DNA of 16,793 bases from Polaromonas sp. (GTDB taxonomy: Bacteria > Pseudomonadota > Gammaproteobacteria > Burkholderiales > Burkholderiaceae_C), in assembly GCA_026786065.1 (NCBI GenBank), contig JAJAYS010000274.1, forward strand, positions 1-16,793, in the 5' to 3' direction. The notes beneath the pieces are model-generated. The model saw only the letters and a program-made list of their open reading frames with translations. It did not search any database and was not told where the DNA came from. Below are positions 1 through 12,882 of this stretch, one piece after another; the first letter of the stretch is position 1; every line of letters starts with the position of its first letter. Both the position numbers and the translations under genes were made by a program.

Positions 1-377
1 CAGCTCAGTGCGGCCCGACGGTGGATGGCCGAATAGACGAACCGGCCATGGTCCGGCAAAGGGCCGTAGGTGTGCGCGTCGTCGTCTGGATCAGGCATGG
101 TCAAGCCCGTGGCTGGCTGGCCCGTACTGCGCGCTCGCAGACTTCAGGTGAAAACTTGTTTGATTTCTTCATGGCTCAATCCTCTCAGAGAGTTGAGCCT
201 TCTCAAAACTTAGGGCGGTTCACATTTACAGTTGCGCTATGGCGACTTGCTTCAGTTCGCCGTCCTAAACAGGGACGAATAAAGGATGCAGGCCGCAGAG
301 GCGGGGCTATATGACAGAGCTTTCTTCAGGAATCAATACAGCCGAGTTTTGATCCTAGTGCTAGTCCGGAGCTAGCC
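1..377. other. Gene-free stretch at window edge
   Basis: I see no credible protein-coding gene here. An open frame of 97 codons (21-314, plus strand) has no ribosome binding site, no recognisable domain and a composition that looks accidental. The stretch contains a near-palindrome at 173-199 and a small inverted repeat at 360-376 (GCTAG/CTAGC). It lies downstream of the 3' end of the tRNA-Thr gene, a common place for integrated elements, but I see no copy of the tRNA 3' end in it and no integrase. It may be the tail of a locus that continues outside the window. Confidence 0.5.
173..199. repeat. 27-base near-palindrome
   Basis: The outer arms GGCTCAA (173-179) and TTGAGCC (193-199) are perfectly complementary, and the inner CTCT/AGAG (182-185, 187-190) pair around the centre at 186. 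Only the bases at 180-181 and 191-192 interrupt the symmetry. No U-tract follows on either strand, so it is not a standard terminator. It could be an operator or part of a structured RNA. Confidence 0.5.
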
Positions 378-408
378 AAAAAAAATCCGCTACGTTTTAG
401 ATAGCGGA
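378..408 (-). terminator. Intrinsic terminator after tRNA-Thr
   Basis: Seven-base arms TCCGCTA (386-392) and TAGCGGA (402-408) enclose a nine-base loop. Reading the minus strand, the hairpin is followed directly by eight Ts (A-run at 378-385). It lies 16 bases past the 3' end of the tRNA gene, so it is the natural terminator of that transcript. The plus-strand side also ends in a T-rich stretch (410-419), so the hairpin may work in both directions. Confidence 0.85.
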
Positions 409-424
409 CTTTTCTTATTAAAAA

Positions 425-500
425 TGGTGCCGGAGAGATGAATCGAACACCCGACCTTCTCATTACGAATGAGCTGCTCTACCGACTGAGCTACACCGGC
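425..500 (-). tRNA. tRNA-Thr (anticodon CGT)
   Basis: Reading the minus strand, a full cloverleaf fits 76 bases including an encoded CCA end (425-427). The acceptor stem is GCCGGTG/CTCCGGC with one T-T mismatch. The D arm is GCTC/GAGC. The anticodon stem-loop GCTCA-TTCGTAA-TGAGA gives anticodon CGT, which reads ACG threonine codons. The T arm carries the standard TTCGATT loop. The mismatch at the top of the anticodon stem (G27-A43) also occurs in the E. coli tRNA-Thr(CGU) as I recall it. It has its own promoter upstream and a terminator downstream. Confidence 0.95.
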
Positions 501-510
501 TAAGCCCCAG

Positions 511-538
511 AGTATATCGGGCTGCGACGGGCTGCAAA
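511..538 (-). promoter_or_regulatory. Sigma-70 promoter for tRNA-Thr
   Basis: On the minus strand a TTTGCA box (533-538; 4 of 6 matches to TTGACA) is followed after 16 bases by TATACT (511-516; 5 of 6 matches to TATAAT). The -10 box ends ten bases before the first base of the tRNA, which suits a very short 5' leader. The box match and position are seen directly; promoter activity is inferred. Confidence 0.6.
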
Positions 539-552
539 TTTCGGCGTTCGGC

Positions 553-1809
553 CTACTTGATGGTGAACGCCGGCAGCTTTTTGGGCACTGGCAGGTTTTT
601 CAGGGTCGCATAGACCGGCAAGCCGTTTTTGTACTTCGGGTAGTCCTCGCCCTGGATCAGGGGCGTCAGGTAGCGCTTGCAGGGCTCGGTGATGCCGAAG
701 CCGTCCTTGGTGATGAAGTTGCGCGGCATGAATTTTTCGACGTTGGCGACTTTGGCCAACGGCGCCATGCCGATCTTGTATTTGTACGGTGAATCGCCGA
801 TGCGGTCGATGGTGGGCATGACGGCGTTGTGGCCCTTGAGTGCCAGTTCAACGCCTTTCTTGCCCAGCTCGTAGGCCTGCTTAACGTCGGTCGCCGAGGC
901 GATGTGGCGCGCTGCGCGCTGCAGGTAGTCGGCCACGGCCCAGTGAAATTTATAGCCCAGCGCCTCTTTCACCATGTTGGCGACGACGGGGGCCGCACCG
1001 CCAAGCTGGGCGTGGCCGAAGGCGTCGCGTGTGCCTTGCTCCGCCAGAAACCGGCCGTCGGCGTAGTGGCAACCCTCGGACACCACGACAGTACAAAAGC
1101 CGTGTGTCTTGACGAGCTTTTCGACGCGCGCCAGAAATTTCTTCTGGTCAAACGCAATCTCGGGAAACAGTACCACCACCGGGATGCCGTGGTCTTCGAC
1201 CAGTGCGCCGGCGGCAGCAATCCAGCCGGCATGGCGGCCCATGACTTCGAGCACAAAGACCTTGGTTGAAGTTTCGGCCATGGAGCGCACATCAAATGAC
1301 GCTTCCAGCGTTGAGACAGCCACATATTTGGCGACCGAGCCAAAGCCCGGGCAGCAATCGGTGATTGGCAGGTCGTTGTCGATGGTCTTGGGGATGTGGA
1401 TGGCCTGCAGCGGGTAACCCAGGGACTCCGACAACTGGCTGACCTTGTAGCAGGTGTCTGCCGAGTCGCCGCCGCCGTTGTAGAAAAAGTAGCCGATGTC
1501 GTGCGCTTTGAATACCTCGATCAGGCGCTCGTATTCGCGCCGGTTGGCGTCGAGCGATTTCAGCTTGAAGCGGCACGAACCGAATGCGCCGGAGGGCGTC
1601 GAGCGCAAGGCCGCGATCATGCTGGCGGATTCTTTGCCGGTGTCTATCAGGTCCTCGGTCAGCGCGCCCAGAATGCCGTTTCGCCCGGCATAGACTTTGC
1701 CCAGCTTGTCCTTATTGGCACGCGCGGTTTCGATGACGCCGCAGGCCGAGGCGTTGATGACGGCCGTAACGCCGCCCGACTGCGCATAAAAAACATTCTT
1801 CTTTGCCAT
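553..1809 (-). CDS. pfp: 6-phosphofructokinase, probably PPi-dependent
   Basis: This 418-residue cytoplasmic enzyme of the phosphofructokinase family interconverts fructose 6-phosphate and fructose 1,6-bisphosphate. The family signatures are visible: a glycine-rich phosphate loop near the N-terminus (AQSGGVTAVIN, 9-19), NGGGDS at 111-116, PKTIDND at 140-146 and EVMGRHAGW at 188-196. The aspartate at 115 and the lysine at 141 sit where ATP-using enzymes have glycines; in the family these two changes mark pyrophosphate use, which makes the reaction reversible. The residue before that Asp is Gly (114) instead of the usual Mg-binding Asp. The gene lies 65 bases downstream of pepN on the same strand and may be co-transcribed. 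The upstream ribosome site is weak (AAAGAC). ATP use cannot be excluded from sequence alone. Confidence 0.9.
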   Translation of the reverse strand: MAKKNVFYAQSGGVTAVINASACGVIETARANKDKLGKVYAGRNGILGALTEDLIDTGKESASMIAALRSTPSGAFGSCRFKLKSLDANRREYERLIEVFKAHDIGYFFYNGGGDSADTCYKVSQLSESLGYPLQAIHIPKTIDNDLPITDCCPGFGSVAKYVAVSTLEASFDVRSMAETSTKVFVLEVMGRHAGWIAAAGALVEDHGIPVVVLFPEIAFDQKKFLARVEKLVKTHGFCTVVVSEGCHYADGRFLAEQGTRDAFGHAQLGGAAPVVANMVKEALGYKFHWAVADYLQRAARHIASATDVKQAYELGKKGVELALKGHNAVMPTIDRIGDSPYKYKIGMAPLAKVANVEKFMPRNFITKDGFGITEPCKRYLTPLIQGEDYPKYKNGLPVYATLKNLPVPKKLPAFTIK

Positions 1810-4996: not shown

Positions 4997-6178
4997 CTAT
5001 TTTCGCAAGATTGGGGAACTGCCCGCCGGAGCCAGTCGCTCCGAATTTTTGGGATCCCGAAACACCAGCGGCTTGACGACGGTTCGTTCGCTGTCGGGCA
5101 CCTGTGCGTAAGCTACCGCCGCCAGCACGCGATCGTGAAACGGCGATTTGTCGCAAACCGGGTCGGCATTGGCGGCGTCACCGGTCAGCATCAGCGCCTG
5201 GCAGCGGCAGCCGCCCAGGTCTTTTTCTTTTTCGGGGCAGGTGCGGCACGGCTCTTTCATCCAGGCGTCACCCCGAAAGTGGTTGAAGGCCGGCGACGCA
5301 TACCAAATGTCGGGCACGCTCATGCTGCGCACGTTCGGGAACTCGATGTTTTTCAGCATCTTCGCGGTGTGGCATGGCAGTGCGGTGCCGTCGGGTGTCA
5401 CGGTGAGAAAAATGTTGCCCCAGCCGTTCATGCATTTTTTCGGCCGCGTTTCGTAGTAGTCGGGCACGACAAAAAAGATGCGCAGCTTGTCTCCGAGTTT
5501 GTCGCGCCAGGCATTGGTGACGCGCTCGGCGCGTTCGAGCTGCTCGCGCGACGGCAGCAAGCCGTCGCGATTGAGTTCGGCCCAAGAGTAATACTGCGAG
5601 TTGGCCAGCTCCAGGTATTCGGCGCCCAGCTCGACCGCCAGTTCGATGATCTGTTCGATGTAGTCGATGTTCAGCCGGTGTACCACGCAATTGAGCACCA
5701 TTGGCCAGCCGTTGGCCTTGATGAGGTGCGCGGTGCGGCGCTTCAGCTCGAAGGTTTTGGTGTTGGACAAAAAGTCGTTCAGCTCTTTGGTCGAGTCCTG
5801 AAACGAAAGCTGGATGTGGGCCAGCCCGGCCTCTTTGAGCGCCGCCGCACGCGACTCGGTCAGGCCGACGCCGGATGTCAGCAGATTGGTATAGAACCCA
5901 AGTCGATGGGCCTCGGCCACCAGCACTTCCAGGTCGTCGCGCAGCATCGGCTCGCCGCCAGAAAACCCGCACTGCACACTGCCGGCGGCGCGCGCCTCGC
6001 GCAGCACCCGCAGCCATTCGTCGGTCGAGAGTTCGGCCTGCGCACCGGTCTGCGCAAAGTTGACCGGGTTGTAGCAAAACACGCAGTGCAACGGACAGCG
6101 GTAGGTCAACTCGGCGAGCAGCCATAGCGGTGGGCCGGGTGGGCTGGCAGCGCCCGATGTCGACTCAGCGGCGTTCAT
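4997..6178 (-). CDS. pqqE: PQQ synthase PqqE, radical SAM
   Basis: PqqE is a cytoplasmic radical SAM enzyme that, with PqqD, makes the first carbon-carbon link between the conserved Glu and Tyr side chains of the PqqA peptide. From the ATG at 6178 it has 393 residues. The SAM-cluster motif Cx3Cx2C is Cys28, Cys32, Cys35; GGEP follows at 74-77. The C-terminal SPASM cysteines are all present: Cys249, Cys269, Cys311, Cys314, Cys324, Cys326 and Cys342, with Asp320. This matches the auxiliary iron-sulfur pattern of the family. The frame stays open 32 codons upstream to 6274, but that extension overlaps pqqD and is unlike the family N-terminus, so the ATG at 6178 is preferred. It overlaps the end of pqqD by 14 bases and is the last gene of the operon. 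Confidence 0.97.
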   Translation of the reverse strand: MNAAESTSGAASPPGPPLWLLAELTYRCPLHCVFCYNPVNFAQTGAQAELSTDEWLRVLREARAAGSVQCGFSGGEPMLRDDLEVLVAEAHRLGFYTNLLTSGVGLTESRAAALKEAGLAHIQLSFQDSTKELNDFLSNTKTFELKRRTAHLIKANGWPMVLNCVVHRLNIDYIEQIIELAVELGAEYLELANSQYYSWAELNRDGLLPSREQLERAERVTNAWRDKLGDKLRIFFVVPDYYETRPKKCMNGWGNIFLTVTPDGTALPCHTAKMLKNIEFPNVRSMSVPDIWYASPAFNHFRGDAWMKEPCRTCPEKEKDLGGCRCQALMLTGDAANADPVCDKSPFHDRVLAAVAYAQVPDSERTVVKPLVFRDPKNSERLAPAGSSPILRK

Positions 6179-6479
6179 GGTGTGCGAGCCATCCCTGGCG
6201 CTGTGCAATGGCCAAAAAGTCCAGCACGTCGGCGGCCAGGCCGGTCGCGCCGAAGCTGCTTTCGAGCTCGTCAATCACTGCCTGAACGGTTTTCTGCCCG
6301 TCCAGGCGCTGCATGATCTCGCCGGCGCTGCCATTGAGCTTGACCATGCCCTCGGGGTACAGCAGCACCCAGGCTTTCTGCACTTCTTCCCATTGCAGGC
6401 GGTAGTGCGCGGCAATGCCGGGCTGGTCGCTCAGGCTCGGGGCGGCCGGCTGGGTTGGGGTGGTTTGCGTCGTGGTCAT
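6165..6479 (-). CDS. pqqD: PQQ peptide chaperone PqqD
   Basis: PqqD is a small protein of the RRE (RiPP recognition element) type. It binds the PqqA peptide and presents it to PqqE. The product has 104 residues: a Pro/Thr-rich N-terminal tail of about 20 residues, then the conserved core with [25 protein letters not shown] (split across 25-49) and a helical end containing [14 protein letters not shown]. The start ATG overlaps the pqqC stop by four bases (6476-6479), and its 3' end overlaps pqqE, so the three genes are translationally coupled. Confidence 0.95.
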
Positions 6480-7222
6480 GCGCTGGCTTTCTTCTCGCCG
6501 ACGATGGCGATTTCACACTGGCTGAGCATGATGGCGTCGGCCAGCGCCCACAACACATCGAGCTTGAACTGCAAAATCTCAACGGCGCGCTGCTGCAGCG
6601 CCCGGCTTTGGCTGAAATGCGCCAGCGTGAAATGCAGGCCGTGCTCGACGTCTCGCCGGGCCTGGGTCAGCCGCTGCTTGAAGTAGCGCAGGCCTGCGGC
6701 ATCAACCCACGGATACTGCACTGGCCAGGTGTCGATGCGCTGCTGGTGAATGTGCGGTGCGAACAGCTCGGTCAGGCTCGATGCCACGGCCTCTTGCCAA
6801 GGCTGGCGGCGCGCAAAGTTGACATAGGCGTCCACCGCAAAGCGTGCCGCCGGGGCCACGAAACGCAGTGACGTGACGTCGTCGCGCGACAGGCCTACCG
6901 CCTCGCCCAAGCCGATCCAGGCTTCGATGCCGCCGGCGTCGTCGATCCCGCCCAGCGTGCAACCGTCGTGATCGAGAATGCGCAAAATCCATTCGCGGCG
7001 GATCTCTCGGTTGTCGCAGTTCGACAAAATCGCCGCGTCCTTCAGCGGGATCGACACCTGATAGTAAAAGCGGTTGGCGACCCAGCCGCGCAACTGGGCC
7101 GGCGTCAGCTTGCCCTCGGCCATCATCACGTGAAACGGGTGGTGGATGTGGTAATTGGTGCTTTTGCCGCGCAACTTGGCTTCAAATTCTTCGGCGCTCC
7201 AGGGTTCGGGAAGGCTGCTCAT
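6476..7222 (-). CDS. pqqC: Pyrroloquinoline-quinone synthase PqqC
   Basis: PqqC is a cofactor-free oxidase that carries out the final ring closure and eight-electron oxidation yielding PQQ. The 248-residue product is all-helical and of normal length. Comparison with the Klebsiella enzyme as I remember it places the active-site residues at His25, Arg51, Gln55, Lys61, His85, Tyr133, Glu152, His159, Tyr180 and Arg184, all conserved. The ATG at 7222 overlaps the pqqB stop codon by four bases and has a good ribosome site (GGAG, eight bases upstream). Confidence 0.97.
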
Positions 7223-8136
7223 AAATCGATCTCCATGCCGTCGTAAGCGACTTCAATGCCGCGTTCGGTCAGTTCGCGCCGCTGCGTGCTGTCGGCGTTC
7301 AAAATAGGGTTGGTGTTGTTGATGTGGATCAACACCTTGCGGATGCCCGCAGGAAGCTGGTCCAGCCATTCGATCATCCCGCCAGGGCCGGTCTGCGGCA
7401 GATGGCCCATTGAGCGCGAGGTTTTTTTGGAGGCACCCAGCGTGATCATCTCGTCGTCGGTCCACAGCGTGCCATCGACCAGCACGCAGTCGGCGGCCTG
7501 CATGGCGGCCCAGACGGGCGCTTCCATCAGGCCCAGGCCCGGTGCGTAAAACAGGCGTTTTCCAGTCGCAGGCTCCAGCACGGTCAGGCCGACGTTGTCG
7601 CCAGGTTGCGGGCGGTCGCGGTGCGGTGAGTACGGCGGCGCATTGCTGATGAGCGGCAGCGCGGTGAAGTGCAGACCGGGTGCGCTGGCAATTTCAAAAC
7701 CGCTGACGTCCAGCCGCAGTTCACGCCAGTCGATGCCGCAGTAGTGTCCTAGCACCTTGAACAGCGGGTTGCCGCTGACCAGGTCGTCACGCACCAGCGG
7801 GTGGCACCACAACTCCAGCGGCTGGCGGTGCTCGCGGAGCATGTACAGGCCCGTCGTATGGTCGATTTGCGCGTCCATCAAAAGGACGGCCCGGATGGCG
7901 GTGTCGCGCAGGCTGCGCGCTGGCTGCAGCCTGGGGAAGCTGCGGATCTGTTGGAGGATGTCGGGGGAGGCGTTGAGCAAGACCCAGTTTTGCGTGTCGG
8001 CACTGATGGTGATCGACGATTGGGTGCGCGCCGTGAAGCGGGGATCGCCTTGGCGGCAAGCGTGGCAGTTGGGGCAGTTGCAGTTCCATTGCGGGAATCC
8101 GCCGCCGGCCGCAGACCCAAGGACATGGACTTTCAA
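7219..8136 (-). CDS. pqqB: PQQ biosynthesis protein PqqB
   Basis: PqqB belongs to the metallo-beta-lactamase fold and is thought to be an iron-dependent hydroxylase acting on the Glu-Tyr intermediate; older literature suggests a role in PQQ export. The N-terminal [18 protein letters not shown] region holds the structural zinc cysteines (19, 21, 24 from the start chosen here), and [10 protein letters not shown] carries the modified metal-site motif. No in-frame ATG exists near the expected N-terminus. I chose the TTG at 8136 because it gives [12 protein letters not shown], the usual family beginning, and 305 residues. A second TTG at 8181 lies inside the U-tract of the upstream terminator and would add 15 unconserved residues. 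The gene overlaps pqqC by four bases. Confidence 0.93.
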
Positions 8137-8179
8137 AGCGTGAACGTTTCCGGTTTCATGGCGGCACAGCCGCCCAGAC

Positions 8180-8215
8180 AAAAAAATCAGCCCGTCGGTT
8201 TGCCCCGACGGGCTG
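8180..8215 (-). terminator. Strong intrinsic terminator between pqqA and pqqB
   Basis: A perfect 11-base-pair stem (CAGCCCGTCGG at 8188-8198 with its complement at 8205-8215) closes a six-base loop. Reading the minus strand it is followed by A and then seven Ts (A-run 8180-8186). It starts seven bases after the pqqA stop codon. Most transcripts from the pqqA promoter should end here, with limited read-through into pqqBCDE. That would give excess PqqA peptide over the enzymes, in line with high pqqA expression reported in other PQQ producers. Confidence 0.9.
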
Positions 8216-11777: not shown

Positions 11778-12882
11778 TCAAACGCCCTGTTTCAGCGAAG
11801 CCTCAATGAACGGATCGAGGTCGCCGTCCAGCACCTTCTGCGTCGCCGAGGTTTCGTAGTTGGTGCGTAGGTCCTTGATACGGCTCTGGTCTAGGACGTA
11901 GCTGCGAATCTGGTGGCCCCAGCCGACGTCGGTTTTGGTGTCTTCAAGTTTTTGCTGCGCCTCCTGCTGCTTGCGCAACTCGAAGTCGTAGAGCCGCGAG
12001 CGCAGCCGTTTCCAGGCGACGTCGCGGTTGCTGTGCTGGCTGCGGCCGTCCTGGCACTGCACCACGATGCCGGTCGGAATGTGGGTCAGCCGCACCGCCG
12101 AATCGGTCTTGTTTATGTGCTGGCCGCCGGCGCCGCTGGCGCGAAAGGTGTCCACCCGCACGTCCGACGGATTGATGTCGATTTCGATCGAGTCGTCGAT
12201 TTAGGGGTACACGAACACCGACGCAAACGAGGTGTGGCGCCCGCCCGACGAGTCGAACGGCGACTTGCGCACCAGCCGGTGTACGCCGGTCTCGGTGCGC
12301 AACAAGCCGAACGCGTATTCGCCCTCGATCTTGATCGTCGCGCCCTTGATGCCCGCCGTGTCTCCGGCCGTCTCGTCTTCAATCTGCGTCCTGAAGCCCG
12401 TGCGTTCGGCGTACTTGAGGTACTGGCGCAGCAGCATGCTGGCCCAGTCGCAGGCCTCGGTGCCACCGGCGCCAGCCTGGATGTCAAGAAAAGCATTCAG
12501 CGGGTCGGCCGGGTTGTTGAACATCCGGCGAAACTCCATTTTCTCGACCTCGCGCGCAACCACGGCGGCTTCGCCTTCGATGGACTGCATACCGGCCTCG
12601 TCGCCTTCGGCCTTAGCCATGTCGAACAATTCGGCGTTGTCGGCCAACTCGGTGCTCAGGCGGTCGATGACACGTACCACGTCTTCAAGCGATTTCTTCT
12701 CGCGCCCGAGTTCCTGCGCGCGCTTCGGGTTGTCCCAGACCTTGGGGTCTTCCAGCGCAGCGTTCACTTCGTTTAATTTTCGTTCCTTGGCAGGGTAGTC
12801 AAAGATACCCCCGAAGCTCATTGACCCGGTTGCTCAGGTCGGCGAGCTGGTTGCCTATTGAATTGATGTGTTCTGCTTCCAT
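11778..12882 (-). pseudogene. prfB: Release factor 2 with programmed frameshift and internal TAA
   Basis: RF2 releases the finished chain at UGA and UAA codons. Translation starts at the ATG at 12882 behind a good ribosome site (AGAGGA). After 27 codons a UGA (12799-12801) requires the classical +1 shift into the main frame, giving 367 codons in total, normal for RF2. The codon-recognition motif SPF is at 207-209 and the catalytic GGQ at 252-254. Between them, codon 227 is TAA (12201-12203) where the family has Glu (VFVYP-E-IDDS); everything after it stays in frame to the natural stop. As read, the product would be a 226-residue protein with recognition domain but no GGQ loop. A single G-to-T change from GAA explains it. 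Since prfB is normally essential, a sequence error, a second copy or true decay must be considered. The lysS gene that often follows prfB is not present in the short gap. Confidence 0.9.
12798..12813 (-). promoter_or_regulatory. prfB programmed +1 frameshift site
   Basis: On the minus strand the sequence CGGGGGTATCTTTGAC gives the standard elements: an internal Shine-Dalgarno-like G-run three bases before the slippery CTT, then the UGA stop followed by C. Low RF2 lets the ribosome slip from CUU to UUU and continue at GAC. This is the well-known autoregulatory loop of RF2 synthesis. Confidence 0.95.

Follow-up and report, generated by a model that had tools for sequence, protein, structure and literature searches.

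An in-frame TAA inside prfB of a fragmentary Polaromonas draft genome is probably a consensus error

UGA is read by RF2 only, and RF2 is normally essential. The prfB gene described here resembles bacterial RF2 genes (family TIGR00020) in scoring over the family cut-off, in encoding both SPF and GGQ and in having the standard frameshift site, but it differs from them in an extra in-frame TAA between the domains. Interrupted genes of comparable kinds have been described. According to the available portion of PMC12421855, prfA is annotated as a pseudogene in 34 genomes, for which its authors left sequencing error open; there, as here, the stop lies at no conserved place and occurs in single genomes, whereas the gene concerned is prfA there and prfB here, with a stop outside the frameshift motif. 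In the part of PMC11017572 available to us, internal stops in assemblies are often consensus errors at low coverage, in a study in which metagenome-assembled genomes (MAGs) were not assessed. Our case is like those spurious pseudogenes in that an internal stop falls in an otherwise normal gene of a poor assembly, but isolate genomes with reads were used there and assembled sequence alone is used here. The accessible parts of PMC12421855, PMC7918605, PMC13245932 and PMC11017572 do not describe any functional stop at the place of codon 227 of prfB.

The window, by which we mean the whole stretch of 16,793 nucleotides that was analysed, belongs to a Polaromonas-like draft genome (hereafter G000) of 2.93 Mb in 396 contigs that is 83.6% complete. 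The features that matter here all lie on its minus strand:

11778..12882, minus strand: prfB (RF2), whole gene; ATG at 12882-12880, 367 codons through the +1 frameshift, natural stop TGA at 11780-11778
12799..12813, minus strand: standard programmed +1 frameshift site of RF2, CGGGGG TAT CTT TGA and then C, read by eye
12204..12818, minus strand: post-frameshift segment 5′ of the TAA, a complete PCRF domain (PF03462, profile 2-194 of 194) with SPF
12201..12203, minus strand: codon 227, an in-frame TAA in the place of a Glu codon
11781..12200, minus strand: segment 3′ of the TAA, a complete and strongly constrained RF-1 domain (PF00472, profile 2-116 of 116) with GGQ

When read through the TAA, the gene matches the TIGR00020 profile with 485.7 bits, over the cut-off of 370, with one TAA inside the match. 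From the ATG, 27 codons lead up to and include CTT (12804-12802), the TGA at 12801-12799 follows, and the frame goes onward in +1 from GAC; a CGGGGG element stands 5′ of the frameshift point, and the motif, whose elements are as given in the available portion of PMC12421855, is also present in the nearest relative, locus L034. It is the TGA of this standard site, at codon 28, that serves as the regulatory stop of prfB, and an earlier note on this DNA had passed it over. Beyond the site, the frame is interrupted by one TAA: the minus strand around 12203-12201 reads Phe-Val-Tyr-Pro-TAA-Ile-Asp-Asp and is then open to the natural stop. Alignment to the RF2 chain 1gqe_A puts SPF, which we take to be the codon-reading motif, before the TAA and GGQ, presumably the loop, after it, and the TAA separates the two domains that Pfam defines in RF2, with PCRF ending 4 residues before it and RF-1 starting at the 4th residue after it. 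The earlier note had placed the stop at a conserved Glu codon between SPF and GGQ with the natural stop downstream, and had given a product of 226 residues; both statements hold, the length being right given this ATG and an ordinary +1 shift at CTT/TGA. Its further idea, that such a product could occupy the ribosomal A site, found no support, as the whole C-terminal part, which we take to comprise the GGQ domain and a C-terminal segment packing against the codon-reading domain, would be missing and nothing indicates synthesis or folding of the piece.

The codon is Glu in all 110 other prfB loci that could be aligned there (57 GAA, 53 GAG), so that the stop occurs in none of them; one further match, L063, is too short to reach codon 227 and is outside the 110. 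In a larger set of 127 loci, some of them from the same genomes, Glu was found in 125 of the 125 with a letter at this codon. An RF2 match over the cut-off was obtained in 72 of 87 genus genomes, G000 included, and only two of these 72 have an internal stop, namely G000 itself and, at another residue, G022, both being assemblies of about 400-460 contigs. The G022 gene (L114; G022:C375, about 1-820, minus strand) carries an in-frame TAG between SPF and the place of the TAA. The closest prfB in the 86 other genus genomes is 88% identical at the DNA level, and none of those assemblies is a close second one for this species. Among named records, the closest is that of a Polaromonas sp. MAG, with a protein identity of 95.7% across prfB, and on this basis the genus is taken to be Polaromonas. 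A single match is usual among the genus genomes that exceed the RF2 cut-off, while G016, G034 and G090 have two such matches, and G016 and G034 have 6% contamination. In G010, a second RF2 match (L127, G010:C27:5134-5298), partial and confined to the C-terminal part at family positions 298-353, follows the complete prfB at a distance of about 700 bases. Comparison with L034 showed CheR, CheB and sensor-kinase genes upstream in both loci; L034 differs in one extra gene between the kinase and prfB, and the downstream genes are unlike until pepN. From this gene order, the prfB locus of the window looks orthologous to that of L034.

The part of the gene after the TAA bears the marks of an intact coding sequence. 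Against L034 it has a dS of 0.686 and a dN of 0.0062, and the values across the 14 nearest loci range over 0.006-0.038 for dN and 0.59-1.28 for dS, as compared with a dN of 0.016-0.037 and a dS of 0.48-0.96 in five reference pairs of intact relatives. To judge by these rates, the part after the TAA is not decaying, and its constraint is no looser than between intact relatives. Since its codons are conserved as in those relatives, the TAA either does not exist in the cell, does no harm or arose very recently. Thr at residue 161 of RF2 (position 141 of the frame; window 12399-12401, minus strand) is unique to this copy, with Lys in 119 of the 127 loci, and is the sole other residue unique to the window's prfB at a nearly fixed position in that set.

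In the 49 readable contigs of G000, 177 long frames end in TGA (109), TAG (36) or TAA (32). As TGA ends 109 of the 177 and only RF2 reads UGA, a working RF2 is needed. A changed genetic code was considered and rejected, given that all three stop codons end long frames and that the stops in the interrupted genes are TAA or TAG. A second prfB, which the earlier note had offered as one explanation, was not found by profile search in the 396 contigs; the other two family matches in the genome are one on C113 with 264 bits, at the level of RF1, and, on C253, a short ArfB-like match to the GGQ domain. With the assembly 83.6% complete, a missing second copy in its unassembled part is possible. Neither was a suppressor tRNA, another of the explanations offered, seen in this incomplete genome: none of the 30 tRNA loci that were read, of 33 found, has an anticodon for a stop codon.

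We then considered whether other genes of the same assembly are interrupted. Stops between coding-like stretches were sought in G000 and in a comparison genome of 9 contigs, G023, using one codon model for both genomes and loosened thresholds that were set after the results of earlier runs. Over 375,711 bases, G000 yielded 16 candidates; G023 yielded 6 over 276,357 bases. Besides prfB, four G000 genes in the 49 readable contigs have a Pfam domain running across the stop, and a fifth gene was recognized by eye:

L135 (2450), G000: AcrB-type transporter, stop inside a Pfam domain
L136 (3127), G000: ABC ATPase, stop inside a Pfam domain
L146 (3259), G000: FolD, stop inside a Pfam domain, the match to which is also lost further along, frameshift-like
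L168 (3095), G000: solute-binding protein, stop inside a Pfam domain, the match to which is also lost further along, frameshift-like
L135 (5470), G000: membrane-fusion protein, stop mid-gene, by eye and with no Pfam match

The ten remaining candidates are neighbouring genes, four by Pfam (L169, L194, L201, L203) and six by eye only (L136 at 1680, L141, L151, L159, L163, L165). Two of the six in G023 lie inside transposase domains (L179), and four have no domain across the stop. Leaving out prfB, which was preselected, non-mobile genes with a stop in a Pfam domain number 4 in 376 kb of G000 versus 0 in 276 kb of G023 (about p = 0.1), so that the excess of interrupted genes in G000 is suggestive only. 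The interrupted genes in L135, L136, L146 and L168 may reflect either a poor consensus or true pseudogenes. Earlier runs gave 7 versus 2 candidates (G000 versus G023) with separate models on N-free contigs and, in the first scan, a biased 15 versus 2, with a codon model distorted by the nine all-N contigs among 40 of G000; a run with the same fault returned 1 candidate in 18 further G000 contigs, one of them all N. A frameshift scan, its model affected by N, gave 5 versus 5 and was too noisy to separate the two genomes.

Several large genes of G000 are free of internal stops, namely gyrA and a paralogue, dnaE, two carB fragments and nine matches to class I tRNA synthetases. rpoB is represented by a fragment of 50 positions and rpoC by no match in G000, which makes both unusable as a check on quality. 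A parC-like match in G032 contains one TAG, which we take to result from reading past the natural end. In-frame TAG also interrupts rpoC of another draft Polaromonas genome, G016 (L192, G016:C5), at a distance of 11 codons from the contig end near 68197; this is a stop that a living cell could hardly tolerate.

The explanation that we favor, with a probability of roughly 0.7, is that one base was called wrongly in the consensus of a fragmentary draft, which is probably metagenome-assembled, and that the internal TAA arose in this way; this accounts for the results with nothing new required. The gene would then be an ordinary single-copy prfB whose autoregulatory frameshift is the standard one, and the cell would produce RF2 as usual, through a +1 shift at the TGA near codon 28. 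While we infer that the TAA base itself is wrong, the TAA, the intact and constrained gene with its orthologue in L034 and the other mid-gene stops are observations. A consensus error is supported by the invariant Glu, by the constraint after the stop, by the fragmentary assembly, by the lack of a second prfB in it and by the need for RF2, and further by the four other domain stops in G000, the prfB stop in G022, the rpoC stop in G016 and the low-coverage consensus errors described in PMC11017572. It is weakened by the slight excess of 4 versus 0, the two interrupted transposases in G023, the uninformative frameshift scan and the stop-free large genes of G000, as well as by the position of the site, 4.6 kb from the contig end, in a window where inspection of frames and Pfam domains revealed no other visibly broken gene. 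PMC7918605 also speaks against it, with the argument that genuine, read-through cases are numerous among prokaryotic in-frame stops. Alternatively, the stop may be a real and very recent nonsense mutation, in cells that are dying out or that rely on a second prfB located where the genome was not assembled. We rank this second and consider it unlikely, although it covers most of the results: a gene otherwise intact and constrained is what one would expect soon after mutating, the incomplete assembly leaves room for another copy, a few other genes of G000 look broken too, and two RF2 matches occur in the relatives G016, G034 and G090. However, it requires either that the cell was doomed or that a second gene escaped detection, and it has to be set against an RF2 that is normally essential in a genome where TGA is the commonest stop, an assembly with no second copy, and a genus in which single matches prevail and the two-match genomes include the contaminated G016 and G034. 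Of the explanations in the earlier note, sequencing error is the best supported and recent mutation is possible.

We regard it as very unlikely that the UAA is real and is read through by a near-cognate tRNA or a suppressor, giving full-length RF2 at a lower level, possibly with RF1/RF2 feedback. Readthrough also predicts constraint after the stop, and the available portion of PMC7918605, arguing from sequence conservation, describes readthrough of prokaryotic in-frame stops as frequent and mostly short-lived. Nevertheless, the stop is absent from the 110 other loci, the tRNA loci that were read offer no suitable anticodon, and long frames still end at all three stop codons. Nor is UAA with an A after it known as a leaky context. 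Even more doubtful is the idea that the levels of RF1 and RF2 jointly set RF2 output via readthrough, which would make the TAA a second self-regulating stop of prfB in one Polaromonas lineage. The least probable reading, to which we give hardly any credence, is a split RF2, in which the PCRF and RF-1 halves would be separate cooperating chains or the 226-residue piece alone would block ribosomes. The TAA does fall exactly at the junction of the two Pfam domains, but the first possible start after it, a GTG at 12161, is inside the RF-1 domain and has no ribosome-binding site before it that could be seen by eye, and the 110 other loci have a Glu codon with the frame running through. A real and tolerated stop would call into question the need for an intact RF2 in a genome of mostly TGA stops. 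On the consensus-error reading, when an essential gene of a fragmentary draft carries a lone internal stop, this should not be taken as biology unless reads back it. Elsewhere in the window, the minus strand at 4997-8181 carries a run of genes resembling those for the PQQ cofactor, presumably pqqB, pqqC, pqqD and pqqE from a reading of their frames.
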